This document shows, piece by piece, positions 2,833-61,827 of a stretch of DNA of 64,000 nucleotides. A program made the position numbers and the translations under genes. Each line of letters opens with the position of its first letter. Position 1 is the stretch's first letter. The stretch lies in contig NC_049982.1 in assembly GCF_000003815.2 (NCBI RefSeq), forward strand, positions 23,529,137 through 23,593,136. The letters are read 5' to 3'. The notes under the pieces were generated by a model. It was not told the origin of the DNA, did not search any database, and was given only the letters and a program-made list of their open reading frames with translations. Source of the DNA: Branchiostoma floridae (lineage: Eukaryota; Chordata; Leptocardii; Amphioxiformes; Branchiostomatidae).

Positions 2833-5800
2833 GTCCACAGATCAGATGGAAGACTTCATCCAGACAGCCACGCAGCAGGAGACAGAGGCCAAGGACAAGC
2901 TGAGGAACTTCATCGAGGCCCTGACCAGCCGGACTGAGCGGGCGGAGAAGGAGGTGGAGTTCTACCGCAGCCAGTCTTCCCTGGTCAGTCTCAACTCTGC
3001 TGTCAGCTGTACCACATCTCTGTGTACCAAGTGCAAGAAGAGACAGGTACGTTTCCCTAGCATCTTTCTCGCTAAAAAAATGTGTAAAACATTCAGGTAC
3101 AGTTTATATGACACTTGGCTTGGAAAACTATTATGATGATTTTTTTAAGCCTTGAAAAGTTTGCAGTGGTATTAATGCAAAGTCATGATACCTTGAATAT
3201 GTGTTTTGTCATTCAATACTTCAGAATTGTTCCAACCGTGAACTTCAAAAGTCGCGGAAACGTTTCCCTTCCTATATACAGCAAAATAGAACCACGGCAG
3301 AAATTTGAGTATAGCTTCCAAAGAGTTGCTTTTGTTATATCAGTAAGAATCTGTAGAATTTGCCAGCCTAAGATTCTTTCATCAGATTTCTTTTTTGTCA
3401 ATAAATGAATAATGAATTTAGCAGTTGAGATTTCGTGCAAATCAACATATCCATGTCATATTTTGTGTCCATCTACTACAACTGCTTTTCTATATACTCT
3501 ATATTGTCTTCATCTACATAACATCATGCCATTTAAACTAATAAGTGTAAAGCATTATATATCATAGCTTTGAGACTCTAGGAGTCTTGATAAGCATACA
3601 CAACATTGCTTTTGAGATTTTAGTATCAATTTAGTAGCCTGGTATATATGTCTTAATGCCTGGTCCTGTTCTCAGGCACGAATGTCAGCTCCTCTGGGCA
3701 TGTTGCAACGCTCAGCCAGCGCCTGCAGCATCCAGCATCCCTCTGACATGGACACCAGCAGGAGACCCAGTGTCAGTCATCATCAAAGGTACACACTCCA
3801 GCCAGCTTTCTCTTGTAGCATCTTGTATGAGAGCCTCCTGTTGGCTGTTACTAGTACTGCAACATACCATGTCAAAGTTAGACCTTCTTATAGTTTATAC
3901 CTGTGTTGAATGGGTGGTGCCCATCTCCATTCCCTTAGCCCTTGAGCCACCCAGATGTGCAAGCACAGAAAATGCTATAGCTGGGGCTAGTACATAGTTG
4001 CTAGCATTGAGCACGTTCAACTTTATTGGTAGTTTTATTCTTTTCGTATATACATTGTAGAGGATCAGCATTTTGTATGACTTGGTTGAGGAATTGAACT
4101 ACACATCCCATGCAAAAGAAGCATTCCTACCACTAGGCTATTGCTGGAGTTGCCAAAGATACCATCTGTTTCATGCAATCCTAACTTATTACATACACTT
4201 GACTTTATTTCCCCGTTCCATGTAGGTCCAGCAGTGTGGACCCAGTCCAGTTGAACGGTGGCCTGTCAGACCTGGTGAAACAGGCCCGTGTTTTACACAG
4301 CAGCCAGGGGAAGGGCTCCCCCAACCAGCCCTCCACCTCCCCCAGGGGTTCCAACGACTCCGGCCTAGGGGACAGCGGCAACGGCTCGTCACAGAGCGGC
4401 ACGTACGCGACAGTCAGCCCACCTGCACCGCAGTATTATGACAACGACCTTCAACATCCCCAAGGTCACGGCATGGAGGTCCCTTACAACCGAGCCCTGT
4501 CGCCAGAGGAAATTGATGATTTGCAGGCTCAGGGTGTGATTTTCCCAGATAATACACCCCAGAACCAGAGAAGGTCACATACATTAAACAATGGTTACTT
4601 GAGTAACAGCTATCCTATGTCATCACCATCCACAGGGCGGAGGGGAATGGCTAGTGAAAATGGTTACCACAGTAACAGGAATGGTCTTCCCAATGCAACC
4701 CCTCCCACCCGCAGGAGGACAGCATCATATTCAAATGAGGAGAGATATCCAACCAATGACATGGCGTACCCAGTAACCACACCCCCAACTGGGAGGAGAC
4801 AGACTCCCCATTCAGGTTACCATAGCAACCTGACCACGCCCACTGCCACGCCCTTAAATGCTAGAAGAATGCAAAACAGTCCCAGTGGTTACCATGGCAA
4901 TGGAATAAGTCCAAATGCCACCCCTAATATGGCACGAAGGAATCCCTATGGGAACGGTTACTATGGCAACAGTAGTGGGTTCCCTTCACCACAGTCCACG
5001 CCCAACCCTGTCAGAAGGCCGCAGTTCACAGATGAGGACAGCTACTTTGAAGACAGTTGTCAAGACGACAATAGTTTCCATGACAACAGCGACAACTACG
5101 ACCCCAATAGACAAGAGGTAAGAAACCATGTCAACAATCCACGGCAGAGAAATAACAGGAACCCTCCACAGCAGCAGCAATATCATCCAAGTGCAATGCC
5201 TTCACAAACCCCAGTGGGATACCCGCAGAACCGCAGCAAGAGACCTTCCATGGAGAGATTTGGTGGCAGCTTTGATGACGAGACCCTGACAGAAACGGGT
5301 TCCATTACCACGGTAACCACAGAATCAGCGTTTGATGATGACGATATGTTCATGAGCAGGAGAAGCAGTAGGAAGAGGAGCAGGAAGAGGCAGCAGGCTG
5401 AGCTGGTGAGGCGCAGACAGGATGCCTTGACTCTAGCCTTCAGCTACCTGGACACTAAGAGCCTGTGTGCCTGCTCCATGGTGTGTAGGGAGTGGACACT
5501 GATCAGTCGACAGCCTGCACTCTGGAGACAGGTTCACTTGGAGAGGGCCAGGGTTGGCTCCAAGGTTAGTATGAGGACTCCTATCAAAACTGAAATCCAA
5601 ATATCTTAAACTTTGACTTCACAAACAGGATACTAGTATCTGGCAGACTTTGAGAGATTCTTGCTCAGGGCTAGATCAGTTGTACATGTTTCTCTTTTTG
5701 CTTAACAGTCTGCTTGTTGTCACTACAACTTACAAGTGCTTTTATCAACAAGGCAATTAGTCCTGTCCAAGTTTGCATATGCTTCAGTACTAGAATGCTG

Positions 5801-11463: not shown

Positions 11464-14077
11464 CTAAACACCCTGTTGAATCAGCTTGCGAATGGTAGCT
11501 TTTAGGGAATCATAGTTCATTGCATTTCCTTGCGACAAGGTTCCCAAACTGTCAATTTTCCACACCCCAGTTTTGCGTGAGACAGAGCACATGACAATGG
11601 CCTGAGAATGGGCAGCATGGTTCATTTGATCGCTACACAGTTGCTTATTCTTGTTGGAAGCTTCAAAGAACCTAAGACTTGGATTGGGATACTTGGAAAT
11701 GTTTGGGGAGCTCCAAGCACTGAGGGTGAAGAACATGTGAGTGATATTTGAGGGTATTTCTTTGAGCTTAACATTAATAGTGTGATGGCCTTTCCTGTTA
11801 TAGTCATCCATAACATCTCCTGAATGGCGGATGACACCACCATGGTAGAATGTATGACCATAATCAATGACAGCGATAAAGGATGTACCACTGAACAGCA
11901 AGCAAGAGGCATCCAAATAGTCACGCCCTTTATAAGGATACCCCCAGAACAGATCAAAGATGACGTGGTTGAAGTGCTCTGGGATGGCATACAGCATGAT
12001 GATGAGGTGTACAGTGCTGTGGGGCTGTACTCCATAGTCCCCCATTGTGGCCAGTTGTCCACTGTTGGCGTATGTCTGTACAAATTGCAAATATAGACAC
12101 ATAAAATGTATGCCCGTACAAAGTGTAATTCCATCATTCATTTGCAACTTCATAATACAAAAATTTAAGCGAAAGAAAATCTCTTGGGCATCAATATACA
12201 GGTATGACACTTTTAGTAAAAATTACAGTAACTGTAGTGTCAATTTTATTGTTACATCATGTATATAGAACTATACCTTATTTCTTGTGGATATTGTTCA
12301 GCTGTAGTTCTTTGTAAAATGGTTACATGCATATCTTTCTGTAATGGCTAATGCAAAAATTGCATGCTATATTAAGAGAAAAAGTACATGGAACAGTGCA
12401 TCTATTACTGAAAGTGAGAAAAAAACAGCTTGAGATTAATTAAAACCTTAAGAAGACAGAAGGGCAGCAAAAGATATTTGACAAAGTTTCACATGCAGCC
12501 TTGTTTGTGTTACCTTCAACTCCACTTCATTGTAAATGAGCCGTTGTTTCTCCACATTATGGTGAAGCTGCTTCTGGATTTGCAGTTTTATCTGATGAAT
12601 TGTTGTGGAAGGGTTGTAGGACAGACTGATGCTCTCTCCATTCATCATCACCACAGAGATCACCTTCGCCCCTCCCGATGCTCCCAATGCCGCCTGTAGG
12701 ATAAAACATGAAGTCAAGGTGAGAAAGCTTTGTACTCTCCATACAGAATTATTATGATGCTTTAATATGCCATCATTCCAGTTGGTTTCCAGAAGAAAAT
12801 GTATCTTTTCAAGTGAAAATCAATGTTGCTTTTGAAGTGAAAAGTCGTCAATGATTTTCACAGAGACAGTAACACTAACAAAGACAGTAACACCTTTGAA
12901 TATGCAGGAATGCCACAGCACTGGCTACCTTTACAATTTGGGGCACGAAATGCTGCCTGCCAAAACGGCTATTGTGTCACTGCCTTCTCCGCAATCCAAT
13001 TTGATTCAATATGTTATAATACAAGACCCATCCTACATGAATACAAACATTTGAACATGCAAATATTACATAGAAATCCTTCCATTCTCATTGGTCAAAC
13101 TGAAGTTTGGCATTTTCTCATTGGTCAAACTACTAATTGTGATGGACAGTCAGAATCAGTCTCTTGTATTAACTCTATATCCTTTCGTTTTAGCAAAAGC
13201 AAACAGTGTAAACAAATCCTACGGATACAATGTACTATATAACAAGTTTTTTTAAATGTCCTGTATCCCCGGGAGATGGATGCCAAATGCATATGGAAAG
13301 GTTAGATAAGAATTCCTCTCTTGCTTACAGTAGTGTAGTCCACAGTAGAGGTACTGGTGTACTCTGCAAACAGCCGGTTTACTGTTGCCTGGAATTCTTT
13401 CAGCCTCACACAGTTACCAGGCACTTCTGCTTGGCAGGTTGGGTGTGGGCACTTCTTCTGTTGCTCAACTACTTTGATCAGACACTGAAAATTGCAGGAA
13501 CAGTACATGATTAAATATTGATACCACAAGCCTTCAGTGAAGATCAAGAACGCCAGAGGAAGGCCAAGAATATAAATTAGGCCACACTGTCTTAATTTTA
13601 TGGATGACATGCACGCATTGATACATTTGTACATAAAATTCTATTATATGGCTTAACATTACATGTTTATAATTTTAACAATAGAAAACAGCATGAAACC
13701 ATCAACATAACTTTACTATTGGACAAGGACTTAACTTAGATTCACCTTTATCCATCGGCAACCTTTATCCGTTGTATTGAAAAGCAGCATATTTAGGGAC
13801 ATCAAGACGATGGAGGGTGGTTTTAGACTGAAATATTTTCAAATATTCTAGTTTGATACCAACGTTCGTAGATTTGATACCCTGTTTTTCAATACAACGG
13901 ATATAGGTTACTAGTATCCTGCAGATAAAGGTGAACTGCCGTTACATGTCAAATGTAAAAGCAATGTTACATGCTTACCCTGAAGCAGTGAAGTGGAGGA
14001 TGATAGCATGAGTCCAGTATTGTAACTGATGGGAACTCCTTTGACAGCTTCTCTACCTTACACCCAAGACACTTCAT
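11464..14077 (-). CDS. RING-like zinc finger + ubiquitin-like + TerD domain protein
   Basis: Four phase-0 coding exons on the minus strand: 14077-13979, 13484-13329, 12693-12514 and 12075-11464 (stop TAG), giving 348 residues. Residues 3-50 hold a RING-like Cys/His pattern: CLGC, then SCYH, then HCFRC across the first splice junction, then CPHPTC. The last pair is spaced x4, as in RBR-type RING1. Residues about 95-177, split by the third intron, form a ubiquitin-like domain (QRLIYNEVEL ... GVQPHSTVHLIIML). Residues about 178-345 match the TerD fold: YLDASCLLF, GGVIRHSGD, INVKLKEIP and a closing GVWKIDSLG. TerD proteins are bacterial stress and calcium-binding proteins; a TerD tail behind Ubl and RING modules suggests a ubiquitin ligase with a ligand- or metal-sensing tail (inference). 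The start is the first ATG after an upstream acceptor (14103 region), which suggests a non-coding 5' exon. It is convergent to FBXO41 and divergent from the RNF213-like gene. Confidence 0.85.
13741..13935. mobile_element. MITE, ttcacctttatcc termini
   Basis: The 195-bp non-coding element begins ttcacctttatcc and ends with its inverse (agataaaggtgaa). A second inverted match (ttgtattgaaaa / ttttcaatacaa) lies inside. It sits in the first coding intron of the TerD-domain gene. A related element is at 60087-60294. Confidence 0.75.
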
Positions 14078-20157: not shown

Positions 20158-23100
20158 CATAACAGCATAACTCAAGATGCCTTGGATGGATCCTAACGAT
20201 ATTTGGTAGGTGACAAGTTTGACAAGTTGACAAGTTTTATTCCGACATGTACGGCATTGCATCTGGTAGCTGAATTGCGCCGTCATTTACAAAGTATACG
20301 AACAGCTGTAATAAGATATGGGCACACTATTAAAAACTTAACAACACAAAACCAACAAGTAATTCTTAACTACAATGTTGTAGTGCATTCATCTTTGTAA
20401 AACGTTCATTATACATATAGAATATCAAGTTGCCATACGAAGGTTGTATCATTACAAATCAGGAGCAGTTCAAGATCTGTGGAGTAATTACTTATTCAAT
20501 AAAGTATGGTATGGGGGAGTTCTTATATCTGTTAGTTTGGTACATTGGGGTGTCCAGTTTCTCGGACCTGCGAGTGGTACGTCCCGTCATGTGCTTTCTG
20601 GAGGGTGGGAGCCAGTCCCGGAACTCAGACTGTAGTAGTGACTCGCCGAAACTGGTCCAGATACGAATCCGTCGGTCTGACAAGGTACTAAGGTCCAGTG
20701 TGGAGAGAGCCGAGGTATAGTCCGTATATTGGGATCTGAGAATGTTTCGACATGCCCTCTTTTGGATTCTCTCAAGTTTTACTGTTTGGGCCATGGTCAG
20801 TGCCGAGTGCCACGCCGGTGCTGCGTACTCTAGCGTGGGTCTCACATACGACGTGAAGACTGACTTAAGGTCTGGGAGAGTTACACCAAAACGCTTGAGT
20901 CGACGAAGCATGTACAATTTCCTGTTGGCTGACACTAGCATGTTGTTAACTTGCATGTCCCATTTCAAGTCATTCTGCACAGTTAAACCTAGCACTTTGA
21001 TGTGTGGCACGCACAACAGGGGTTGTGGAGGAGGAGGGGCCTTCATGAAGCACACTCGGAGTACGAAACATTTCTTTGGATTTAAGGCCATTTTGTGGTC
21101 ACTAACCCAAGTGCTAAGGTTGTCCAGAGTAGATTGTAGTGTACATGGCTGACGCACTAACCGGGTCTCTGCAATGTTCATATCGTCCACGAACTTCCAA
21201 TGGTTGAGGACTTCACATAACGCTCCATCGATCAATGCCATAAAAATAACTGGTCCAAGAGGTGTTCCTTGCGCTACTCCGCAGCTGAGGTAGAGCCAGC
21301 CCGAGGGTTCACCCTGATAAATCACTCGCTGCCGTCTGTCGGTTATGAAGCTACAAATCCAAGGGATGACTCCCGGACAAACACCAAGATCAAGTAAGGA
21401 TCTAATAGCTGTGGTATGGTCCACTTTGTCGAAAGCTTTGGACAGATCGGTGGTAACAAGAGTGCAGATTGACTTTGACACGGAAGTAGATTTGTAGAGG
21501 AAGTCCACTAAACTGACCAACGTGTGTGTTGTCGATCTGTGCTTCCTTCCACCAAACTGGCGGGGATCAAGCTTTGGAGAAATGTCTTGTACTATCCAAT
21601 TTGTCACGAAGCGTTCACAGAGTTTAGATAACATTGGAGTAAGAGAGACGGGCCGAAGTTCGTCGATGTTTGGAGGGCTCAGGACTTTGGAAGTGGAACC
21701 ACGTTGGCTTCCTTCCATTGACGGGGTACGGTGCCTTCTTTCAGCGACGTGTTGAGTAAGTCACACAGAGGAGTGCTCAGCTCACACGCGAATTCCTTGA
21801 GAAGGCAGGCCAGAACTTTATCCGGTCCGGGACTCTTGTAAGTGTTGGTAGCACATAGATACGAGTAAACATCCCATTCCTGGATAACAGGTAACGGTTT
21901 GGCCGGAAGGAATGATGAGAGAGATGACAGCTCCAGTGGCGGGAGTGACTGAGACACGTCCGCGAACTAGGTGGGTAGGGGTCGAGAAAACGAAGGTCAA
22001 GTTCGATAATGGGCCCCCTAGCGGCTTGCTAAGGTACTGCAGCGGAAACTCAATTTTTTATATCTCGTGTTCTGGACATACTGTGGTCATGATTTTTGAG
22101 TGATAGATAGCCCATAGGGCAGAGAGTATGCTGTGAGTTTGGGCCCCCTAGCGGCTTTTTGGTACTGCAGGCGCCGGTTTCCTTTCAAACTTTGGATGAG
22201 AATAACTCTACAACGTGTTGACAGATCTTCATGATTTTTGAAATGTAGATAGAATGAGTGTTGTCATACAAAATGGGATACTAATTATGTACATGTAAAT
22301 CAACAGCTAATTTGCATAATTAATGAGAAAAGTTTATAAATCCACTGCATTCCATGATAGGACTTCAAACTTGTCACATATGTAGCTGAGAAGGAGAGAA
22401 ATGTCAATAGATATCAATTATGCAACTGAAGACCCTATTTTCATAATTAATGAGACAATATGAACATGTTGACGGATCATCATGTTTTTTGGTATGTAGG
22501 TAGTATAAGTGAAGACCTACATAATGAGATACCAATTATGCAAATCAACAGCTAATTCGCATAATTAATGAGGACATTTGATAAATCCACTACATTCCAT
22601 GATAGGACTTTAAAACTTGTCACATATGTAGCTGAGAAAGAGAGAAATGTTAATACATATTTATCATGCAAATGATGACTTCATTTGCATAATTAATGAG
22701 AAAAATATGAACGTGTTGATGGATCGTCATGATTTTTGGCATGTAAATAGCCTAAGTGAAGACTTATATAATGTGATACTTATTATGCAAATTAACAGCT
22801 AATTTGCATAATCGGTTAGGAAAACTTTATAAATCCACTGCATTCCATTATAGTACTTTCAAAGTTGAAAGAGAGTAAGAGGTGTATTTAAAGACTTTGA
22901 AAGAGAATAAGTCAAGAATGGATCAAAGGATCATCACGATTTTTGGTATGCTGATAGCTTAAGTAATGCTTGATACAATTTTATATCAATTAATTGTAAC
23001 TTGGGATCTAATTTGCATAATCAATGCCGAAATTTTATAAACCAACTCCAAGCATATAATTATAAAATGAAATGAGTAATGCATTTGTCTACAGACATCA

Positions 23101-26100: not shown

Positions 26101-29100
26101 TGTAGACTTCTTTAGCTTGCTGTTGTTATATATGTAACAGTCAAGTTTCACCTTTAGCAGTAAGGTTAATTTACTCTCCCTGATTGTATGTATTAACTCA
26201 TGAAACATTATATTGTAAGGAATCAGTGTTATATTACTTGAAAATTACCTCATGTATTCTTTAAGCCATACCCACCTCAAATCAAGAACACATACCTCCC
26301 ATTCTCAGGACAAAAGTAGCTATAGTGTTGCAGCAAAGAAAAAAAATTGGCTATACTCTACTTCAAAATGCAGGAAATAGCATTTCAGAGGCTTAAAATT
26401 TCAAAATTCGGACCCCCCCTACAATGCTCGCGCCTTCGGCGCTCGTCGTGCGGCTCTGCCGCGCAGTGCGGAGAGTACAACACATTACAGGTGTACAGCC
26501 TAAAAAAAGTTCCTCGCTAAAAGTCTGCCCCGCGGTTGTCAGGCGTGCGTACTCTGACTTACAGTTGTTGTAATACATAATTTCTGAAAATAGGGTTGGG
26601 ACAGTCCATCCTCACTTCGGGACAGTTGAAATTTATTTTTGGGACAATGCTGGGACAGTAGGGAAAAAAGTTAATTTTGAGGCCTGATCGTGTCGACCTT
26701 CCACTTATTTCCCCCCGAGAAGAAGGGAGAAGGTGTCTGAATTGCTCAGATGACTGCAGTGATCTGGCGAACTTCATCGTTAAGGCTTCGCGACGGTCTT
26801 CGAGTGTGGGTAGGTCTAGTAAGTCACATGCCTTGGTGTAGGACGTAAAGTCAGGGCCTAAAATGATTCTGAAGGCACGTCTTTGAACGGATTCGATCTT
26901 CTTACTTAGCACGCTGGGTAGTCCGGGGTGCCACACGGGGGCACAGTACTCTGTTATGGGACAGATGTAGGTGATGTAAACTGTCACAAGATCATCTGTT
27001 GGGAGGCGGAAGTGTTTGAGTTTACATAGGAGGAAGAGCCGTTGACTGGCTTTATTATACATAGTGTTGACATGGGTGTTCCACTTCAGGTTTGATTGAA
27101 GATGTATTCTAAGGATTTTCATAGATGGTACTTCTTGAAGGACAACATTACTGACTGTGAGTGGACGAGGGATGTAAGGGACTTTGCTGAATTGTATGTG
27201 CATAACTTTGCACTTTCCAGGGTGGAGCATCATGTGGCTTTCTTTTGACCAGTTGTCCAAGTCAGTTAGGTCCTGTTGCAGGTGTGACGGACTTAGGGGT
27301 GGGTTCCGGACTTCCAGCATGTTCAAATCATCAACAAATTTCCAGCGCTTTGAGAGAGCTTCCTGCGCTGCACTATTAATGTAAGCAGTGAAGATAAGGG
27401 GGCCCAGTAACGTTCCTTGTGGCAGACCACAAGTGATCAGAACGCTGTTAGAACACACGCCGTGGTATCGCACCTCTTGGCGCCTGTTTGTGAGAAAATC
27501 GGCGATCCATCTGACCAGCAAAGGCCGCAGGCCGAGTTCTACAAGACGGCAAATGGCGAAAGTGTGGCTGACTCTGTCGAATGCCTTGCTATAGTCAGTA
27601 GAGACTAGGGAACACGGAGTATTAGGCTTGTCACACGCCTTGAATAAAGTGTTTGTCATGTCTAGGAGGCAGTGAGTAGTAGATTGGCCTTTAATTCCAC
27701 CGAACTGCTGAACGTCAATATTCGGGAGGATGTCTGTCATAGCCCACTGGCAGATGAAGTTTTCAGCGACCTTACTCAGGAGTGATGTTAGAGAGATAGG
27801 CCGAAGTTCATTTACGGACTGTGGTTTGCACTTGGGGACTGGGACTACCGTTTTTCCACTCATCTGGTACTAAACCTTGTTGGAGCGATGAGAAGAAACA
27901 ACAAGCCTTTACAATCATGTATTTGTAGGAGCCACATGTAGGCTGTTTTGTTCATCTTAGCAGGCTGAAGTAATCAATATTCAATATATCGGCAAGGAAG
28001 ATCAAAGAAGTACACTTTTAAAAGGTATATAGCTCCAAGGACTGTGGATTTTACATTGCATGACTGTGCTGAGAATATGTTAAACAGGGCATTTTCAACA
28101 TACAAGGCATTGAACTCCATATTAAGCATTAATTTCCATAGCTCACACTTACAAATCTTGCTGCAGATTTGTCTACTTTCTCTCATGGTTGCAAAAGAAA
28201 CCCATTAATGTGTGAGGGTTGCTCTGGATATGACGTCTTGGAAATTGTCTGTGCAATACTCACTGGCTGCTTGTCTCTCTTACAACTGTGCAAACGTAAT
28301 ATCCCCTCGCCGACTTTGTTTGCATACCATTCCATAAAGATGCTCCAGTTTTTCCTGTGATGCATTTTGATGGCACAGTAATGTCATCTTGACAGATTTC
28401 GAATCTGGGCAAAGCAACTTGCGTGTGCAGAAGCACCATTTACTGCAAAATTAGCACGTTTTGTGACATTTTAGGACAAGGTGGCATATGCTGGCCTTTT
28501 GCAGCAATATGCGACTGTTGAATGGTTCTGTGGTGGCAATAACTTCTGGTTAATCAGGGGAAAAACTCTGTACCACTGTACTGTAGTGTCCGTACCCCAT
28601 GTAGGGTCTCACTCTGTACCCCTGTAATGTCCGCATACCCCATGTAAGGTCTCACTCTGTACCCCTGTAGTGTCCGCACCCCATGTAGGGTCTCACTCTG
28701 TACCCCTGTAGTGTCCATACCCCATGTAGGGTCTCACTCTGTACCCCTGTAGTGTCTGCACCCCATGTAGGATCTCACTCTGTACCCCTGTAGTGTCCAT
28801 ACCCCATGTAGGGTCTCACTCTGTACCCCTGTAGTGTCCGTACCCCACGTAGGATCTCACTCTGTACCCCTGTAGTGTCCGTACCCCATGTAGGGTCTCA
28901 CTCTGTACCCCTGTAGTGTCCGTACCCCATGTAGGATCTCACTCTGTATCCCTGTAGTGTCCGTACCCCACGTAGGATCTCACTCTGTATTCCTGTAGTG
29001 TCCGCACCCCATGTAGGGTCTCACTCTGTACCCCTGTAGTGTCCGCACCCCATGTAGGGTCTCACTCTGTACCCCATGTAGGGTCTCACTCTGTACCCCT

Positions 29101-32100
29101 GTAGTGTCCGTACCCCATGTAGGATCTCACTCTGTACCCCTGTAGTGTCCGTACCCCATGTAAGGTCTCACTCTGCACCCCTGTAGTGTCCATACCCCAT
29201 GTAGGGTCTCACTCTGTACCCCTGTAGTGTCCGTACCCCATGTAGGATCTCACTCTGTACCCCTGTAGTGTCCGTACCCCATGTAAGGTCTCACTCTGCA
29301 CCCCTGTAGTGTCCGTACCCCATATAGGGTCTCACTCTGTATCCCTGTAGTGTCCGTACCCCATGTAGTGTCTCACTCTGTACCCCCTGTAGTGTCCATA
29401 CCACATGTAGGGTCACCACCTGTACTGTCTAACCCCCTGTACTGTCTAACCCCCTGTAGTGTCTGTACTTCGAGTACTGCCCGTACTCCCTGTAGTGTCC
29501 TTACCCCTGTAGCTTCCATACCCCTTGTAGTTTTTGCACTCCCTGTAGTGTCTGAACACCCTGGAGTATCTGTATCCCATTTAGTGTTTATTCCACTGTG
29601 GCTCCATACCAGACCAGTAGTATTCTTAACTTCTGTAATCTACATACCCAATATTGTCTGTACCGCTTGTAGTGTTTGCATCCCCTGTAGAGTCTGTACC
29701 CCATGTACTATGATGTAGTAGCTGTTCCCCCAAAACTATTCGTACCTGCTGTAATGTCCATTATTATCCCTGTATACTGTAAGTTTATTTATGTTCGCGA
29801 GCACTTGATTTCACGAGTTTGAGCAAATCGGGACTTCGCGAGATCTTTGAGTTTGTGAGTGGGTGTTTCAATTTTTTTCAAAAGTTGCGATCCGGTACTA
29901 TGAAGGTAGCGAGTGACGCCCTCCCACCCACACCACAACACCAGTCATGCCGTCAAAGGCACCATTTACGCCTTTGAGTTCCAAATTTACATGTATAGTT
30001 ACCCTTCAAACAATGTCTAAAGTTGGTGTACTCAATAAAAAAAATGTGTTTCTACCAAGCCACTGTTTCATTGCTGAGCTCGTTTCGGCCATGATTTGAC
30101 GACAGCGCACGGAACGTAACAGGGCCAATGACCTCTGTTATGTCGCAATCACATTTGCCGCATAGGGTGATGGGATATCCCACGCCAAACAAGTGACGTG
30201 GGCGCCGTTTTTTTATTTTTTCGGTGTGAAAGGCGGCGCTAAGTTTTAAACTTTCAGCGTAATTTGTGGACAAAAGTTGTACACAAAAAGGTGAAGAGTT
30301 TATCTCTCCGATATTTATTTATTTTATATAATTTTATTTAATTTACAGTAGTTCTAACTCAGAATTATGAAACGAATGTCTTTTCTTTTTGGCATGTAAG
30401 CGGAGTTGTGTTTGCCACGTTTCTAGTCGCGAAAATTCCCCTCTATTATAATAATAGTATTATTCAATTGTTGTAAATCTTAGTTGCTGTAATTCCATAA
30501 CCTTTCTTGTATTTGTAAAGACCAGTACTACTCAGTTTTATTTTTTGTTTCGTTCGTAACTTGTAGAAATCTAGTTAAACTAGGATAATGTACTAAGTAA
30601 ATTGTTACCGCAGCCATGTCACGGCATGCACGTACAAAGCCGACGTTTCTTTTTCCTCCATTCGCCATTGGGACATTTCTGTACAATAATGACTCCATGT
30701 ATCGTTTATGTGTTGAATTAACTTTTATTTCGGTTTGAAAAGAATAAATGGTCTGTTATCAACTGAGTCTTGTCATTGGTATAAGTTACTATCATAGTAC
30801 ACACGTAGTTGAGACTGGATCTTTTGGACGGAAGGTATGGGGAGGGGGCGATGTTGAACATCATCATAGTGGCATGTTCGCGAGTAGATGACTTCGCGAA
30901 GAAGAGGTCTCAGCGAAATACGTGAACTTAAAAATCTCGCGAACTTAAATCAACTTACAGTAATCCATATCTGCTAATTATCTGCGTGATAGTTACCTGC
31001 GTGATGTGCAGGTATAGTTTTAAGGTTCGTGTATTGTGTGTTTGACAGGTATAGGCAGGTTTGACTGTAGCTGTAAAATTATTGGAAACTGTTGCTTTTT
31101 TCTGTAGGAACATGATCCTTCTGGGCACAACAAGGATGGTGATGTTAAGCACCCACCATCAGAGAGTTCAGGCCCCTTGGTAGAGCTTGAGCAAGGGAAT
31201 GGCACACAGCACAGTAACAACAGGACAGAACAGAGCCACACAGACCAGCCTGTAAGCATAACAGTAATTGAATCTTATGCCATTTTATGCAAATGCGTAT
31301 CTAGAGATTGGAGATGGACACTTTTAACTGGAATTTACACACACTACATAATTCTTCATTTTCCATCCAGAAGATGTCTTGAGTAACTGTTGCGTAATCA
31401 AAGCATACACAATATTGTTTCCTCAAGTCAACTCATACATATATAATTACAGAAAGTCTGAGCAGTTTTCCTTATGTGCCTCTGCCAATTGAAGACACTT
31501 AATGTTATTGTACATGCAAGATGCATTGCTTTCCTTTTGAGTAATATTCTTTAGAAATCAGGCTAATTTTAAATTATTGCAGGACCAGAGGACAAATGGA
31601 CAAGTGTCCCAAGTGAATGACACAAAGGCAAATGGAGCTGACGATATGCCTGCTCCTGGCGGGTACATGGTCACAAGAAGTCAGGAGAAGGAGGCTGCAG
31701 CAAGACAACAGGCATTTGAGCAGACAAAGGTATAGATTTCATTTAATTGTACTGACAGCATTGCGCACATCAAAATTACATATTAAGCATCTTTCTTTCT
31801 GGCTTGTGCTTCGCAATGGTCAGGCCTGGGAAAAAATGTTGTGTTTCCTGTTTCCCTAACTACCCTAAAAAAACTGCTGACCTAGACCTTTTTTGGGTGG
31901 GCAGTGGTCAGTCACATAGTTTCCAGTTGGAATTTTTATTCAGCCTGCTTCCTATTGGTTCATCAGAAGTAAAACACTGCTTGTCCTATCTAAATGAAGG
32001 ATAAATATCCTTTAGAAATTTAAGTTTGACATTGAAAGACAAGTGTCATCATGCATTTCAGTTTACTTTGTTCAACTCTATTGTATGTATTACTAGAGAG

Positions 32101-35100
32101 TACAAGGAAAAAAAAAAGATAATCCCTACCTACCGATCCTAATTTTTTCATGGATGAAACAGAAAACACACATTTTTTTTTCTAGGCCTCATGTTCTGAT
32201 CAGGGTATAAGAATATGTTCAGGTGGTAACATACATGTAACCTGGACACAAAAACAGAAGCTGGTGACATGCAGTCTGTTGTTCTTTTCCATCTTTGCAT
32301 GTTTAAGTACTCAGTTGAGCAAAGACTAACAGTCACCTTAAACAACAGGGTGCTGTAACTTTTGTATGTCCCCTGACTTTGGACGGATTTTTAGTTGTCA
32401 CATTGCACAGAAACAAGCCATGTTTGTTTTTGTCAACAATGCTGAATTATAGAATTGTTAAAAACATTGGTAAAAAATTGGTAAAAAAGTTAAAGCATAG
32501 ACTTGTTGTCTGGATAAAATATTGAATTGTGTACAGTAACCAATTTTTGCTTCGCCAGACAAATTTGAGCATTATAATTATATGTATCTGGTCTCCTTCA
32601 GTCAGTAATGACCATAGTAAAATCCTAACTGATATTAGCCTATAGCTCTATGCTATGACCTAAAACAGTCATATGCAAGAGTGACAGTCTCTACCACATA
32701 GGGCACATCCGTGTAGCCTGACTAAGGTCTGTTGTAGAGTCCTTTTCTCAGGATTCGCTTTTCTCCTGCTATGTAGATCAGTCTGGCTTCTCAAGATTTT
32801 AGCTGTCTGGACAGTGTGCATCTTTAGCTGGATCTGTCATTTGCAAGGCCCTCCCAGTACTAGTGCTCTTTGTCAATATCGAGAGTCTGCATGTCCCTCT
32901 TTGAAATGCAGCAGCGGCCGCCCGGTGAATCTCTTTCCTGAGATCAGTTCCCTGTAGAGTATGTCTTTGGGCATTCGACCATCCTCCTTGTGACGGATGT
33001 GGACTAGCCAGCATAGTCTGTGTTGTCAGAGCAGGGTAAAAACTGGTCACCATGATTTGACCAGTATGCAGTAGATACACCTCATGTGGAAAGCATTTAG
33101 TTCTCCTGCTTGGCATAGGTGGACCTTGTTTTGCTCCCATGCATTTTCAACATGTATCTTGCCATTAAACTGACCTTAAATAATTATGTGGAGACAATGG
33201 TGTCACCTCTTCGAGGATGAACTGAACTGAACTAGATAACAAAATAACCATGGTGTCGAATGCCCTCCTCTTTTCACATCACGGTAATTCTGTTGCCCCC
33301 GGTTCAAATGTGCCACAGAAGTAGGGTCACAAAATGGTGAAATTGCATGTAACCTAGCTTGACACATGTTGGATAAACTTGTGTTTGGTAAATCCTCAGT
33401 TGCTGGCTTACAGTACACAAGCTGACCCACGATGGGATATTGGTTGATAGTTTATTGATTGCAACCAATCACCGAATACATGGCAACATGTAAGCAAATA
33501 CATGTACATTGTGTTTGCTACATCAATTCAGCGTGCTACAGTGGTACATCAATATATGTAACCTAGCCCAATGAAGTTTGCAGACGGACCGGCTTTGATC
33601 TGGCATGTGTGGCCTATTTGACAATGAGTGATTGCTGAATCTGTATACGACATTTATATATTAATGGCTTGCTCTATATGAAATCTGAAAACATGAATAA
33701 CAGGCTCTAATTCTAAAAAATGAGGAGTGGTTCGGAATATGTCGTAACTTTGCACTCGCATTTTGTACATTCATTCTAAGTAAGAGCTATTGGTATGAAA
33801 TGAAGTACTTTCATTTTCATACAAAGACAAAGCAACTGACTGTCAATGTTGACAAGGCTTGAAATGCAACAAGCAGCGTAAGCAATTGTTAAGTTACAGC
33901 AGGCCTCGTATACATGTAGGTGGAGACTTACGCATGATCGGTAGAGACTTATATCTGCATGGTCAACAAATTTAGAGAGAAGCCAAAGTTAGTTGACACA
34001 TTGTAATTCGTCCTTCTATTTTACTTAGAATTGTCCCAACTCAAATAGAGACAATGGAAGTTGGTACGCTGTTTGAATAGAACAATGTTATGTTATGTTC
34101 GTATTGATTAACAACATTTTTCTGGCTTTATCGGCTGACATTCATGGTGTAAACTGTGCATGGTCAATGGACAATCAACTTCTCAATGGAAAATCTCCAA
34201 CACACAGTCACTTTCATTTATCATTAGAAGAAACGACACTGGTGCAATTGTGACAATTTCAAATTCCTTAAATTTACGTCCGAAGTTAGGGGACCCACCA
34301 TTACTTTTCATGACTTATGAATATGAGATAGGCAGGTTGCAATTGCTTTGTGTATATGCACTTTGGCCCAAATTTGTATGATGTTAGAAGTAGATATCTG
34401 TAAAAGACTTAACTTTACAGCTTGGTAAATAAATGTTACCAGTGTGTAAGCAAAATTTTCAGAGCTTTTATGTTTATGACCTGATTGGCTTTACAGCTTC
34501 TCCAAGTAGAGTTTTTCCTGTATGCTCCGGAAATTGATGACTACTCAGCATGTGAGGCTGTCCTGTGTGTCAGTGACAATGGACAGAGTAAGAACTATCC
34601 ATTATGGGCAATTGATGAGAAGATTTTGTGGACAACAAAATCTCCTGTGTACTTACCAGTTGACAAGGAGACACGCTACAAGTATAGTGTACTGTACAAA
34701 GCCAAGACATCATTCTTCCAGAGAATCTTTAATGTGCGCAAAGACATGGAGGCTTGCTGGGTACATGAAGTGGCAGCCTCAGTTCATGACACACAGAGCA
34801 TACACAGGGACATCTTCAAGGACCCAAATGTATTCTACAAGGATGAAGAGTTCTACGGGAAGTTGTTCTTCACAGAAGATATTTTCAATGCTGTAACATT
34901 TGGAAACCTAAAGGAGAAGCTACTGGAATGGGAATATCTACAATTCCCAAATACAAGCTTGACAACAAAGGAGGAAAGAAAAGAAATTCTCGGAAGAATT
35001 ACAAAGTTATCATGGAGAGCAACAAAAGTACAGAAAGCTTTCCTTTGTGTTGTGCTAGGGAAAATGTCCCAACAGAGTGGGTTCCACTTGAAGAAGCTTG

Positions 35101-38100
35101 AAGTCGCCACTGCTAAGTCACTCCTTCAGGGTCTGTCAGGTTTAACAGTAGAAGACCTTCCATCCACCTGCATAGGTGGCTTGAAGATCATGGTACCACA
35201 ACTGTTGTCAGCAGCAGATACAGTTGAGCCTTGGCTCTGGCTTCTTGGCAACTGCAGCAAACTTTTTGAAACTGGCTACCTTATACAGCAGGCAACATCA
35301 CAAGAGTTGAAAGAGTGGTCAAAGAAGCATACTCCTGCACAGTACATGGAGCACTCAAATGTTCCCATATACAATCTGATCCACACTCATCCAGGAGGCT
35401 CACATAGAGATCGACTTCTTGTGGCCATACAGAGGGAGGCTCCTGACATTGATACAAAGATTGCTATCTTTGATACAGTTGCTGGAGATTGGCAGGCTGA
35501 AAACTTGCAAGAAGTTCTGGAACCCATGAAGCTCAACTGTACAGCAAGTGTTGAGAATGCTATCAGATCACTGAAGGGGCCCAAGCAGGTAGAGGAGCTG
35601 TATCAGCTGTGGAGGAAAGTTGAGAGAATGGGCCTACCCGTGGAAGACATGATAGCATCAGCAGTGACTCAGCTGGCTGCCAAATCCTCATTTCCACAAG
35701 ATCAGATCACCAAACTACAGATGCTGATGACAGACAGAAAGCTCTTCTCCAGTAAGAAGGCACTGGACCTTTTCAAAGTCATAGCAGCATCAAAAGATCC
35801 AGTATTTCAGTCCATGTTCCTCGCACTAGCTCATGATGAAAAAATGAGCCAAGTAGTTGACAAAGAAGATGCAAAGGAATTGTCTGTGATGTGGCTACAG
35901 ACTTCCATAGACGCACACTGTACCACAAGCCGGATGTCCTACCAACCCTCTGTGGTAGCAAGTCTAAACATACAAAGAGCCTATGATGATCTGCTTAAGG
36001 TAATGGGAACTGTTCTTGTAGGTCATGACCAAACAATTGAAAGAGCCCTTGGAGAAGTAGTAAAAGGCTTCATCAGAAAGTTTGGGTGGAAGGTAATGCT
36101 GAAGAAGTGTGAAGATATGAAGAATATGTCAGAACAAGCCCAGGGCCTGTATAAAGAACACCTGGAAGAGATGATCAAGCAAGAGGGTAGTGCCCAGCTG
36201 TCTGAGGATCTGCTGGAGATAGCCTACAGTATTTGTGATATGAAGCATGCCAAGGCACCAGGAGGACTGGATATCAAGTACAAGTAAGCAAGACTTTGTA
36301 AGTTTTAAATTAGAAGAATCAAGGAAAATGTTGGCAAGATGATCTACATATTAGTAAGATGATTTTTTAAAACTATGTGTAAGTTATGTACAGTGTAGTT
36401 GAAGAACAGTGAGCGTTTTCTACTGCTCACACGATTTAAGTTAATCATACAGACACACTGGTTTACATCCATCACTTCTTTTTACTCAAGAGCTAAATTA
36501 AACATGTTGGATATATTACCGGGTAACCATTATATTGCTGTTACTCCTTTTCACATAACCTTAAAGGCAATATCAATTTTTTTCACGCTGACAGAAGATC
36601 TGTTGGTAATGCTGATCAACTTCGTGGACTTGCCCGAGAGAAATCCCGACCAAGACCTGACAGTCAACCTCCAGTTCCTCTTGACTGTGATAGAAGAGTC
36701 TCGATTTTGGCTTGCCATACTCAATGCCAAGGGAAGGACAACTCAACTACATAAGCATCCAAAATGCAAGGCAGTCACTAGTGTACTCAAGGACTTTGGA
36801 GACCAGTTGCAGTCAGGACACATAAACATCCAACTTTTCCAAGCAGTGGTTGAGAAAGCCAATGGTGTGAAAGGAGGTACTGATGTGCTTGCTGTACTTG
36901 TTGATGCTACAAGAAAGAACGCAGGACAGGGCAGCAATGCAAAACTGACAAAGGATGTGCTGAGGGATATTAACAAGCAACTGGAATCACACAAGCAATT
37001 GCTGGACAACATAGAGAACCTGCTGAAGGTTTTCACCACTATGGTGGAGGACCATGTGAAGATCACTGACATCTCACACCTTCGAAGTGACCTCCATAAG
37101 CAGAAGAAGAGGTTTAAAGAGGACAGAGCTTTGACAGTGGCAGACTTAAGTCAACCGACATACTGGGACAAGCTGCATGACCTGCAAGAGCCAGCTTGTC
37201 GTCTCAATGGCTTCCAAAATTCATTTGTTTTCAGAAATGTTGTCCAAAAGCACTTTGCAGAGATGGACTGGGAAGACGATGATGATGAAGAAGATGATGA
37301 GAGCTCTGACAAGTCAGGAGAGAACAAGCCACCTGCACCTTTAAGTGCAGTTGAAACAGATCCCAGTTCATCTACTCCTCCAACCATCTCAATGGTGCAA
37401 TTTGTCAGCACTCTGTCAGAAGAGGTTGTAGAACAATTCAAAGATCAATGCCAACCACTCACTGAGTACAACCCAAAGATTCCATTGGAAACCATACAAT
37501 ACATGTTCGGAGGCATCACTGATGCCAATAAAATGGAGACAGAGTTGTCATGCCTTGATCGCATACTATGTCTTGGTAGTAGAATCCCTTCTTCAAATAG
37601 GAAGGCTCTAAAGGAGTTTGTTGAGTTTCCCAAAACCCAAAAGAAAGTACACAACTTGTCAGCTGCACTTCAACTGTTCCAAGTCTCAGTGGAAACTTCC
37701 AGTGACCTTGGTACTGCCCTCCAACTCTGCGAGAAAGGAGTTGTACAAGGTACCTCTTTGAGCGAGCTTCACAGAGCTGTGGACAAGGTGGAAAAGATCA
37801 TCAGCAAACTATCAGATGAGGACAATGACATCATAGAACAGCTGAGTAGATCATCAGAGCTACTGGCCTTTCTTAGAGATATAGTGGATGAAGACCTGAG
37901 GAACCTAATAGATGCTGTGGAGGAACACTCTGAGCAATTTGTCAATGAATCCACTGTCTCAAATCTAATTGAGGTAAAGAGGTACTTGCAGCCACTACTT
38001 AAAGACAACTTCGACAACAACCCAGAAAGGTTCATCCACAAACTTCAGCACTACCATGAGCTGTCAATCAGAAATCTCCCAGAGAAGATCAGTGACTGCA

Positions 38101-41100
38101 GCATCAATTTCCACAGTTTGAAGGGCCTTTATGCAAGTGTAGCCAATCGAGGAGAGATGACAAAGGAAATAGCTCACAATGCATACATGAAAGGTCGATA
38201 CACTTTTGATCTGAACAGTTCGAGTACATGCAAGGTGACCATGTCTTATGACAGGGGGCAAACACAAGCTAACCACTCTATGTCAGACCTTCGTGACTTC
38301 CGTAGCAGGGCCTTTCTCATTGTTAACTCAGATAAAGGCCTGACATGCCCACCTGGAGAGGTGCAGACAGTCTCTGAATCATCCACAGAACTGTCTCACT
38401 TCATTAGATGCATAGATCTGGCCTCCAACATTGCCTTGTCCTGTGAAAGTCTCCATTCATCTGGGCACTTCAAGTACAAAACCTTTCAAACATCTGTGTC
38501 AAACATTGAGGAACTAGAAGACTTAGATGCAAAGTTGAGGCATGACTATGAAAACTGGCAGGAGACACTTAAGAGGGCCAGAAGGGAGTACTACTATCTC
38601 AACTACCTGTACTCTGATCAGCTCTGGATCCTCGATGATTTCTTCAATGGGAAGCCCATTACACCCGAATTGCATTCACTCTTCCACTTTATTCATCCAT
38701 CAATCACTGTGACTCAGGATATGAGGAAGAAGTACACATCACCAAAGAAGGGAGATAGTCCTTACAAAAGACTCTGTCAGATTGGCTTAGCAATGTACAA
38801 CATATGTGGAAATCATCAGGCTCCAAAGAGACCAATGGACAAGAAGCAGAAACAACAGTCACCCAGTACAACAACCTCAACTATATCATCGCTGCGTACA
38901 ATGGTCCAACCTGGGAAAGTCTTTGTAGCAGCACTTGATGTAGGAAGCTCACAAGTGGTGAACGTCATCATGAATCTGTATGAGAGTACAACAGGAAGTT
39001 TCCCAGAACCAAATCAAATCATCATCTGCAGTCCAGACACAGAATGGGAGGAACTTCACCTTCTTCTCCAAAGGTGTGTTGGAGCTCCAAACCAGCCTGA
39101 ACTGGGCAAGTGTCTGTTCTGTATTGCTAATGTGGAGGTCCTACAGAGTGACATACAGTTTAGGCTTGTGGATGAGATCAAACAACTGCACTCATTAGAG
39201 AGCCCTTTCCTCATGGCTTTGGTGTGCAGAGGAGGTGCGCATCATCCAATCCTGGATCAGTTTTCACGCCTCACCCACAGGATCCAAGGCATGAGCGATG
39301 TTGCTATGAGGCAATGCTTTTCCACATTGTGGCCAAATGTAAAAATGGTGACATCAGACATCCCTGGATTGGGGAAGACAGAGTTTGTTCAAGAGCAGGC
39401 AAGCAGAAAGGGCATGGGAGTGGTGTCATTCCCTATAGGAGGAACAATCACCAAAGACTACATGGTGAAACGATTAGCCAACCTCAGAGTACAGCCATAC
39501 CAAGTTTTGCACCTGGACATTTCACCTGTAGATGACCCAAACCTGCTGGATGCCTTCATTTTTGAGCTCATTGTTGTAGGTGCCGTACATTCTGGAACAA
39601 GTTTTGTTGGTAGACCCACAGAGTACATCATCATGGAAGTAGCCAACACCCTGAATCATGCTCTGCGCAACACATTGGTAACAAGCATGTGCTTTGAAAG
39701 GGTCCATCTCAAGTGGGAGGACTACCAAAACTTCATCATCAGTCCAGAGGTCAACAGCCCAGTTCAAGTGGTGTGCCACTACTTGGAGGCCTTGGACAGA
39801 GCAACCATTGATGAGACAGACATACCACTGTCAGGACCAAAGAGGGTCCCTCCTCTCCCTGCTAAAAGGTGTCAGGATCTTTTGAGAAAGCATTTCTCAA
39901 CAGGTGCCGACCTTTCCTTTACCATAGTTGAGATATTTTTGTCCGTTCTGGCAGACCAGCTCAAGAAATTCTCAGCTAGTCAGTACTTTCGCACTGCGAA
40001 TCTACGCATCATGTTGGGAGATAAACAACAGCACCAAGTACGAAGGAACCTGTTCACAGCCCTGCTAGATGTTTCAAAGGAATTCGCATCCCGGTCAGTA
40101 CTATCCTGCCGCAACACTCAGTCATCTGCAATGACAAAGGAAAAAGCTGTCCAAAAGCTGAAAGAAGCTGCAAGCACAACATCGTCAGCCATGCAAATGG
40201 TCGATCGAGTAGAAGGAATGATTCGTTGGGCAGACAGCAACCATTTGATGGTCATCTTTCACAGCCAGGATGCACAAACTGTGTCTGCACTGTACAGGAG
40301 CCTCCAACAAGTCCCTGTCAAAATAAAGGAATTGTTCAAACAACAGGTCAACCGACCACTTTCTGAGTTTTCAAGCTTGGCACAAGGTGAGTTGCAAATA
40401 ATACTGGAGCGGATTGCTCGAACTACATCTCACAAGCTGAAGAAAGAAGGGACTGGTACACTTGACACAAGGTATGCCCTAACACCAGACAATCTGTTGA
40501 AGATGGCACTCGTCATTATGAGGGTGAGGGCTCGCATCCCAGTCATCATCATGGGAGAGACAGGCTGTGGCAAGACAAGCTTGATCAGATACCTTGCAAA
40601 GACATGTGAAGTTCCGTTCAAGGTCCTCAGCATCCATGCTGGAGTCACTGAAGATAAAATCACAGACTTCGTGACAGACAGAGCTGCAGAAGCAAGGAAA
40701 GATCTGTCTCGTGAGGTTTGGGCCTTTTTGGATGAAATCAACACCTGTGACCATCTTGGACTAATCAACGAAATCATCTGTCACCATTCCATGCTGGGGA
40801 AGAAACTGCCAGAAAATCTTATCTTGTTGGCAGCTTGTAACCCCTATCGGCAACGGGAAAGTTCTCAACTGCATACAGCTGGTCTGGAAGGTAAAATCAG
40901 CTTTGATGAATGCTCCAAGCTTGTGTACAGGGTACACCCTCTGCCCGAGTCAATGTTGGACTATGTCTGGGATTATGGGACTTTGGACGAGAAAGATGAA
41001 AGATCCTACATTGCAAAAATGGTCACTGGTGTGTTCCCTCAGAAATCTAAAGTCAAACCTGCCATGCTCGTTGATCTATTGTCGTCTTCACAAAACTTCA

Positions 41101-44100
41101 TTCGAACAGTGGAAGGGAACCAGTTTGGTGTCAGTTTGCGGGACGTCAACCGCTGCCGCATTCTGATGAAATGGTTCGTGGATATGCTACTGACAAAAGG
41201 AGTAAAAGCTCTCTACAAACAAACAAGCTACTGGCTGACCCTAACTTCTGCTCATCCATGTGATGATGTCGATGTACGGAGTGTCATCCTTACACTTGCA
41301 CACTGCTATCACTCAAGACTTGCAGATACAGAGAATCGTGCAAAGTACAGGAAAGAGCTATCAGAAGTCATGGGACGACACAAAATAAGTGTGTCTGAAC
41401 GTGAGATAGAAGAGGTCATCCACAGGGAGCAGCTGGATCTTCTTGAGCGAATGGAGCTGCCAGAAGGTACAGCAAAGAATGGAGCACTGTGTGAAAATGT
41501 CTTTGTCTTGCTAGTCTGCATCCTAAACAAGATTCCTGTCTTTGTGGTTGGAAAGCCAGGCTGCAGCAAATCCCTTTCAATGCAGTTGATAAGAAGCAAC
41601 TTAAGAGGTCGGGATTCATCTGATAATTACTTCAAGAAACTTCCACAGCTGTATGTTGTCTCACATCAAGGCTCTGAATCTTCAACCTCTGAGGGCATCA
41701 TTAAGGTCTTTGACAAGGCAAAGAAGTACAAAGAACACAATGAAGGAGGCGTCCTACCTGTGGTGCTTCTAGATGAGATTGGTCTTGCAGAAGAATCAAG
41801 ATTCAACCCATTGAAAGTCCTACATAGTCTCCTTGAGCCAGCTGAAGATGACTTCCCTGACATTGCTGTGGTGGGCATTTCAAATTGGGCTTTGGATGCT
41901 GCAAAGATGAACAGGGCTGTTCACTTGTCTCGCCCAGAACCAGACACAAAAGACCTGTACTTGACGGGGAGATCTCTTGCTGAGGCTGCACTGGACAGAG
42001 CATGTCATGGTAGCAAACTACTCACTATGGAACAAGATAAGGCCCTCAAAGCCCTCGCAGAGGCTTACTTTGAATATGAGGAAAAGCAAACATACAAAAA
42101 CTTCCATGGTCTGCGTGACTACTATTCGTTGATCAAGTGCATCTGTTCACCAGAACATGCCAATACAGGTGCTGTTGTTATGCCCCAGTTCAACCTGAAA
42201 GTTTTGAAGCGAGGACTTCTTCGAAACTTTGGTGGCCTACCTACTGAGAGGGACACCATCATGGAAACCTTCCAGCAGAAACTGAGGGCCCTTCACATTG
42301 ATCTTGATGAGGATTCACAGGAGCTTGATGTGAAACAGCTGATACAAGACAACCTACGAGACAAGCAAGCTAGACACCTCATGCTCATCACCAGTGGTGA
42401 CTCAGCTGTGGGCATCCTGGAACAAATGATCAAAGACTCAGAAGATCTGCACTGCAGAGAGCAAGTCACTATCTTTGGGAGCCACCTGGATGATGACCTT
42501 TCTGAAGACTATGACTACCGTACTCTCAGCCGAATCATCCTTTGTATGGAAAGAGGATGCATCTTGATACTGAGAGATCTTGACAGCATCTATGGAAGTC
42601 TGTATGACATGTTAAACCAAAACTACACAGTAGTTGGGAAGAAACGAAACTGCCGTGTAGCCCTTGGAGCATACAGCAACCCAATGTGTCAAGTGCATGA
42701 AAACTTCCGATGCATTGTGCTGATTGACCAACAGAAAGTCAACTACTCAGACCCGCCATTCCTCAATCGCTTTGAAAAGCAACTGCTGAGGTTTTCTGAT
42801 GTGATCGATCCCCAGCAGATGTCTGCAATCAAGAAGCTTCAGTGTTGGGTTGATGGTATCTCAACAATACCTGGACAGCAGTTCACCAAGGAAGACTTGT
42901 TCATTGGGTTCCATGATGATACTCTTCCCTCCCTAGTGTTGTGGCATAGCAAAAATGGTCAAGCTCTCGACCAGAAGGAATTGCTGAAACACTGCAAGTC
43001 TGATCTGATGTGGATAGCATCACCAGATGGCATGCTCAGAGCCTCAAAGTCTAGATTGGCAGGAACAAACTTACCTGACATTGTAAACTTTCAAGAAGAG
43101 TACTTCAACCAACCAACTCACAGAGGACTACAAAAGTTCCTTGAGCACATGTTGCTCGGTGAAGGTCCAGCACCGACTGCAGGACAAGATACAACCACTG
43201 AGTCTGGAGAACATCCTGACATGTACTCCATGCAATCTCCATTGCTAAAGCTTGTGGTTCACACCTTCAGTAATGTCCATACAGACATAGCATCTTGTCT
43301 ACAAGATTTCATCAAGACCAACACTGGTATGGCTGTGAGTGAAGGTTTGCAGGTTGAAAAGCTAAGTGCATTCAAATCAGAGAAGCAACTGTCTTCAAGA
43401 ATTCAGCACTTCTGGCTGGAGTCTAAGGCCACTCTTCTGATATTGCAGTGTTCACCTGCCCTGGACGGTGCTCACATGCTGTTGGCAAAATCACTACTTG
43501 ATCATTACAGAAATGAGTACATCAAAGCTAGTAAAACTGGAAGCATTTGTGACAAACATGTGTGTTTAATGATTCATGTAGAACAGGGAGAAGAGGTGGA
43601 AGAAAACCCTTGGCAGTTGAACTTTCTCTGTGGTTGGCAGCAAGTCACCTTGGACAGCATTGAAGAACCAACACTCCCAGTCAAGGACCTCCTCAGCATG
43701 ACAGTCAGAGAAGTGCTGGAGTCTAAGGTGCGTCCTTTCGCAGATGTTGCACGAGAACAACTGATGTGGTGCTTTACTTGCTTCAAGTACAGGAATGAGG
43801 GACGGCCAGTGGAGGGGATTTTGAAACTGGTCAGTGAAATCTCTGAGTCTCCAGTTCTGATGGAGTTCCTGAAACAACATGTCTACTCATCAGCAACATG
43901 TTTCAGTGAACTGCACCTGGAAGGTGATGCTGACAGTTGGCAGGTACAAGTTGCATGTGACCGGCAACTGCTTCACAGCTGCTCTGGACTACAAACTGCA
44001 ATGCAGCAGTTTATTTCCCTGCAAGTAAGACAGCCCCTGGCCAAAGCTATCTTTCTCATAGAGAGTCAATCTGCATGGGAAAGCTTCTTCAGTGGATCAC

Positions 44101-61163: not shown

Positions 61164-61827
61164 GATATTGCTTGAAATTGATATTGAACATATGTCAATA
61201 TTCACACTTTGACGATCTCAGTGACTACGACTGGTGGCTGCAATGGAAAAATACCTTTTGATTTTAAGACATCACATACTTGATCGGTTCAATCTTTACT
61301 CAAAATGACAATATTAAGGTCATTGGGAATTTTTTGTCAAGTAACAAGAGCAGTATATAATTTGACTACCCTGATCTAGAACTCTAAAATCTTAACTTGT
61401 AAGTTTATCTAGTTTTGAAAGATACTTTTTGACAGATAAGACTGAAATCATGATCGGAAGTTTGAATATAAGCATCGGGTCAATAGAAAACATTATGGTA
61501 AAACACGTAAATCTCTGAGGTCCAAGCAAGCTTCCGCACTTTCCGTAGAACGGAGGTAATCATGAAACGTCGTGCAGCAAACCAAAGACGGCTTAATAAC
61601 CACCATCTGCGTGATTAGGTGGGATTGTACCACGGCAGACAATACGACTAGACTGCCTTCAGTGCTGCAAAGAATCTGCGCATTTTCAGTCGCGGGTGGA
61701 ACACTCGCGGTAATATTTTCTGAACCATCCGCTTGTGATTTGTCTGTTTCCTTTTATTATAGAAAGTGGGTGATATATTTTCGTTACCGTGTAGCTCATT
61801 GCCGCCAATCTTAGCTAACGTTCTGTC
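61164..61827. other. 5' flank of the LRR gene
   Basis: No coding exon recognised. It should contain the promoter and 5'UTR of the LRR gene, but no clear TATA box or initiator stands out. Confidence 0.45.

Follow-up and report, generated by a model that had tools for sequence, protein, structure and literature searches.

A predicted lancelet gene combining a RING-like Cys/His region with ubiquitin-like and TerD domains

We analysed a 64,000-nucleotide stretch of the Branchiostoma floridae genome (contig NC_049982.1, positions 23,529,137 to 23,593,136; hereafter the window). A gene on its minus strand, between positions 11464 and 14077, is predicted to encode a 348-residue protein in which a Cys/His-rich, RING-like region is followed by a ubiquitin-like domain and a TerD domain. 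To judge from the sequence, the fusion of the ubiquitin-like and TerD domains looks real. We tentatively favour, at somewhat below an even chance, the reading that the protein acts in the ubiquitin system, as an adaptor or in an E3-like manner, and that TerD is its recognition module.

Ubiquitin-like and TerD domains in one reading frame

The gene model comprises four exons, which when joined give 348 codons and a stop, all in phase 0. Exon A (13979-14077; 99 bases, 33 codons) carries the start codon and the first half of the RING-like Cys/His region, and exon B (13329-13484; 156 bases, 52 codons) carries the second half of that region, a CPHPTC motif and a linker. The N-terminal two thirds of the ubiquitin-like domain are encoded by exon C (12514-12693; 180 bases, 60 codons), and the end of this domain, followed by the TerD domain, by exon D (11464-12075; 612 bases, 203 codons and the stop). 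The length of every exon is a multiple of three, and GT and AG were found at all borders, with donors starting with GTAAGC, GTAAGC and GTAACA and acceptors ending in TTTTCAG, CCTACAG and TGTACAG. The introns, of 494, 635 and 438 bases, contain 15, 8 and 6 phase-0 stops, respectively. The continuous 348-residue frame over four phase-0 exons, claimed in an earlier note on this stretch (the original prediction), was thus borne out. An in-frame stop lies nine codons 5' of the ATG in exon A. The TTTTAG before AGCAAC at this stop could also act as an acceptor, so that an additional upstream coding exon could conceivably be spliced there.

The whole protein matched the Pfam ubiquitin profile (PF00240) at residues 98-171 with 40.3 bits (E 2.6e-10; cut-off 25.4), and this match spans the C-D junction. 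Exon C alone scored 34.5 bits over profile positions 1-48 of 72, exon C extended into the intron scored 35.4 bits, and the 91 residues obtained by linking exon C to the beginning of exon D scored 45.6 bits. Splicing C to D thus adds about 11 bits, in agreement with the earlier claim of a ubiquitin-like domain that crosses a splice junction. When the PDB was searched with the whole protein, 307 distinct sequences were returned at E <= 1, and all 60 of those listed matched via the ubiquitin-like part; a scan of NCBIfam returned rad23 alone (E 0.11). In an alignment counted by hand, L8 of ubiquitin aligns with M, I44 with I, H68 with H, V70 with I and K48 with V. Continuing the hand count beyond the printed alignment placed A and I at the C-terminal Gly-Gly of ubiquitin. 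The domain runs on as ...IIMLYAIPEHF into TerD, and the processed C-terminal Gly-Gly of conjugated modifiers is absent; the ubiquitin-like domain would therefore be fixed in the protein.

The Pfam TerD profile (PF02342) matched residues 179-325 of the spliced protein with 41.2 bits (E 1.6e-10; cut-off 25.3), and exon D by itself reached 42.8 bits. Consistently, a profile built from six TerD proteins of bacteria and phages gave exon D 41.8 bits, and 2000 shuffles peaked at 8.1 bits. The segments YLDASCLLF, VIRHSGD and INVKLKEIP, previously put forward as a C-terminal TerD signature, are all present in the protein. Exon D also matched PHROG 5698, a family of unknown function (E 1e-10), and weak matches were detected in seven records of a phage collection (E 9e-6 to 1e-2). 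A PDB search with the TerD part alone returned a single sequence at E <= 10, Streptomyces TerD (3ibz, E 0.0088). Searches for a close relative of exon D gave one pattern match in viral_contigs and 227 in genome_contigs, none of which was confirmed. The structure model of exon D adopts a TerD fold (predicted local distance difference test score, pLDDT, 76.2; predicted template modelling score, pTM, 0.77), and its closest PDB structures are TerD-type. Profile searches and structure prediction, which were among the checks proposed with the original prediction, therefore yielded significant TerD and ubiquitin matches and a modelled TerD fold.

The Cys/His region and the acidic residues of TerD

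Eight cysteines and three histidines lie within the first 58 residues (C3, C6, C24, H26, H30, C31, C34, C45, H47, C50 and C58). Searching Pfam with the 85 residues of exons A and B returned no family at E <= 1. The strongest RING profile was zf-RING_2, with 10 bits (E 1.1, residues 2-47 of the first 64; cut-off 27.3), and a PDB search with the RING-like part gave only one row, at chance level (E 1.1). The spacing of these residues departs from the canonical RING pattern, which arises in 3 of 100000 shuffles of the same 85 residues. It does agree with a relaxed RING pattern, picked post hoc with the sequence already known, which occurred in 7 of 100000 shuffles of the 85 residues and in none of 100000 random sequences with an ordinary composition. 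By eye, the CP-x3-C ending resembles that of the first RING of RBR ligases, a likeness on which we base no assignment. The Cys/His clustering behind the RING-like assignment made previously is therefore real, but with no RING family matched significantly and with non-canonical spacing. The region is probably a zinc-binding domain, its identity as a RING is suggestive only, and, given the lack of a significant RING family match, the fusion protein is at best a putative E3.

We further compared the acidic residues of the TerD domain with 13 reference columns, in each of which 14 or more of 20 TerD proteins from viral contigs carry an acidic residue. Only 3 of the 13 are kept in the lancelet domain, which has NRKGHH where its relatives have GDGDDE. 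At the first site, DLD in relatives and YLD here, the alignment is ambiguous, and the N-terminal L-x-K-G stretch of TerD relatives has no match. The conserved acidic DLD and GDN-TG-GDGDDE region that mark calcium-binding TerD proteins are thus largely missing. Two aspartates (GDVMDDYN) lie within the same loop, at columns that are non-acidic in relatives, so a rearranged metal site remains conceivable. Collectively, these replacements weaken the earlier proposal that TerD senses a metal. The likeliest reading is that the domain would recognise a protein or a small ligand and would not bind calcium in the bacterial way.

Similar to the bacterial family (PF02342; PDB 2kxt from Klebsiella and 3ibz from Streptomyces), the lancelet domain matches the profile above cut-off and has the same fold in the model. 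It differs in being fused behind a ubiquitin-like domain, in its unmatched L-x-K-G stretch and in the loss of most acidic residues. TerD domains in a eukaryotic cell are also described for Dictyostelium CapA and CapB and trypanosome FAZ28 and FAZ30 (PMC10953051, PMC3188802), which are compared here by description only; in contrast to the lancelet protein, the descriptions consulted make no mention of a ubiquitin-like or RING-like part.

Possible roles of the fusion protein

In the E3 ligases parkin, HOIL-1 and UHRF1, zinc-binding RING-type parts occur together with a built-in ubiquitin-like domain, and none of the three is known to carry TerD. Compared with these enzymes, the lancelet protein has a Cys/His part with no significant RING match. 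Taking as the starting point a 348-residue protein whose gene is present once as far as the genome search shows, an adaptor or E3-like mode of action could be pictured as follows. The analysis shows that the ubiquitin-like domain leads almost directly into TerD, both being C-terminal to the Cys/His-rich RING-like region; the protein would be intracellular. The Cys/His part would bind zinc and contact an E2 or an E3 complex, and the ubiquitin-like domain, itself unconjugated, may bind ubiquitin receptors and would dock to these or to the proteasome. TerD, without most of the acidic residues of its microbial relatives, would recognise a protein or small ligand, and the outcome would be ubiquitin-dependent turnover or signalling steered by a former stress-system domain.

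Several points weigh against this picture. The agreement with the surface patch of ubiquitin is a residue correspondence only. The alignment behind the exon D model contained TerD relatives, and the modelled fold is therefore not independent of the sequence match. Since no RING family was matched significantly, only the spacing and one weak match speak for the putative E2 binding. In a bolder version, an animal lineage would have taken up a domain of the bacterial Ter system for stress and phage defence and turned it into the recognition part of a ubiquitin ligase or ubiquitin adaptor. The resulting sensor, for innate immunity or stress and without a described counterpart, is in our view rather unlikely. 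None of the open-licence papers listed in our literature searches visibly describes the architecture, as judged from the beginnings of abstracts and a few passages.

The main rival is a non-catalytic scaffold of microtubule-based structures such as the cilium, basal body or centrosome, in which TerD and the ubiquitin-like domain would serve as binding modules and the Cys/His part would be structural. Reports that place other eukaryotic TerD proteins at the flagellum attachment zone or recovered them in a centrosome screen (PMC10953051, PMC3188802) give it this position. However, the association is made by analogy, with those proteins known here from descriptions. The one row for PDB entry 7jtk in the profile search, radial spoke protein 1 (E 0.013, residues 351-399), lies outside the fold-matched range and thus lends the scaffold no sequence support there; we consider the scaffold doubtful. 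Similarly doubtful is a ligand-sensing ubiquitin regulator, in which a nucleotide-like signal bound by TerD would change the activity of the RING-like part. TerD has been proposed as a domain that might recognise specialised nucleotide derivatives or sense such a signal (PMC7159879, PMC7824862), and for CapA and CapB of Dictyostelium a description gives cAMP binding (PMC3188802); most of the conserved acidic positions, however, are gone from the lancelet domain.

That same loss bears on the calcium- or metal-sensing E3 ligase of the original prediction. The TerD homology is genuine, with a Pfam score above cut-off. Klebsiella TerD binds calcium according to the title of PDB 2kxt, TerD is described as encoding calcium-binding sites (PMC10953051), and the two aspartates of GDVMDDYN lie in the loop, although not at columns acidic in relatives. 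Against this stand the three retained acidic columns, the replacement of GDGDDE by NRKGHH and the ambiguous DLD/YLD alignment. Calcium sensing is accordingly improbable, the least likely role when set beside the adaptor or E3-like, scaffold and nucleotide-ligand readings. A wrong gene model, with exons from two genes or a decaying copy, is more improbable still. The A-B and B-C junctions were placed from splice signals and frame alone, but the frames are open through all four exons with standard splice sites, the ubiquitin profile spans the C-D junction, and the A-B junction splits the C31/C34 pair in phase. The interpretation that preceded this work thus holds for the ubiquitin-like and TerD fusion, which the profiles and the TerD model support, and loses ground for metal sensing.

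TerD is studied mostly in bacteria, and the signal sensed there is still only proposed (PMC7159879, PMC7824862). A protein that couples the two offers a testable link between TerD and the ubiquitin system. Additionally, as a natural variant in which the conserved acidic residues are largely missing, it could reveal roles of the TerD fold beyond calcium binding.

Genomic copies and neighbourhood

In the lancelet genome (513,431,437 bases in 431 contigs), one TerD place was found, both by family and by exon D (E <= 10), in a search that proceeded exon by exon and scored the best candidates only. Within the window there were no extra copies, all non-self matches having E >= 0.055, and scanning it with Rfam and for tRNA genes gave no match.

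Several other features were observed in the window. An F-box lies in a 468-residue open frame at 4203-5609 on the plus strand. Reverse transcriptase frames at 20492-21760 and 26559-27869, both on the minus strand, are likely pieces of retroelements of the long interspersed nuclear element (LINE) type. A long array at 28581-29414 repeats a 41-base unit in tandem about 20 times, in two rows that overlap. Leucine-rich repeat frames at 61819-63933 on the plus strand, the first of them with a match below the Pfam cut-off, possibly belong to a receptor gene that extends past the window. The plus strand at 34485-48959 is taken up by very long open frames with a resemblance to RNF213, an AAA+ E3 ligase of giant size. 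A 600-residue frame, without a Pfam match at E <= 0.01, precedes one of 4186 residues (36399-48959, plus strand), which matched RNF213 in the PDB with an E value of 6.2e-139, the best stretch being residues 1356-2250.
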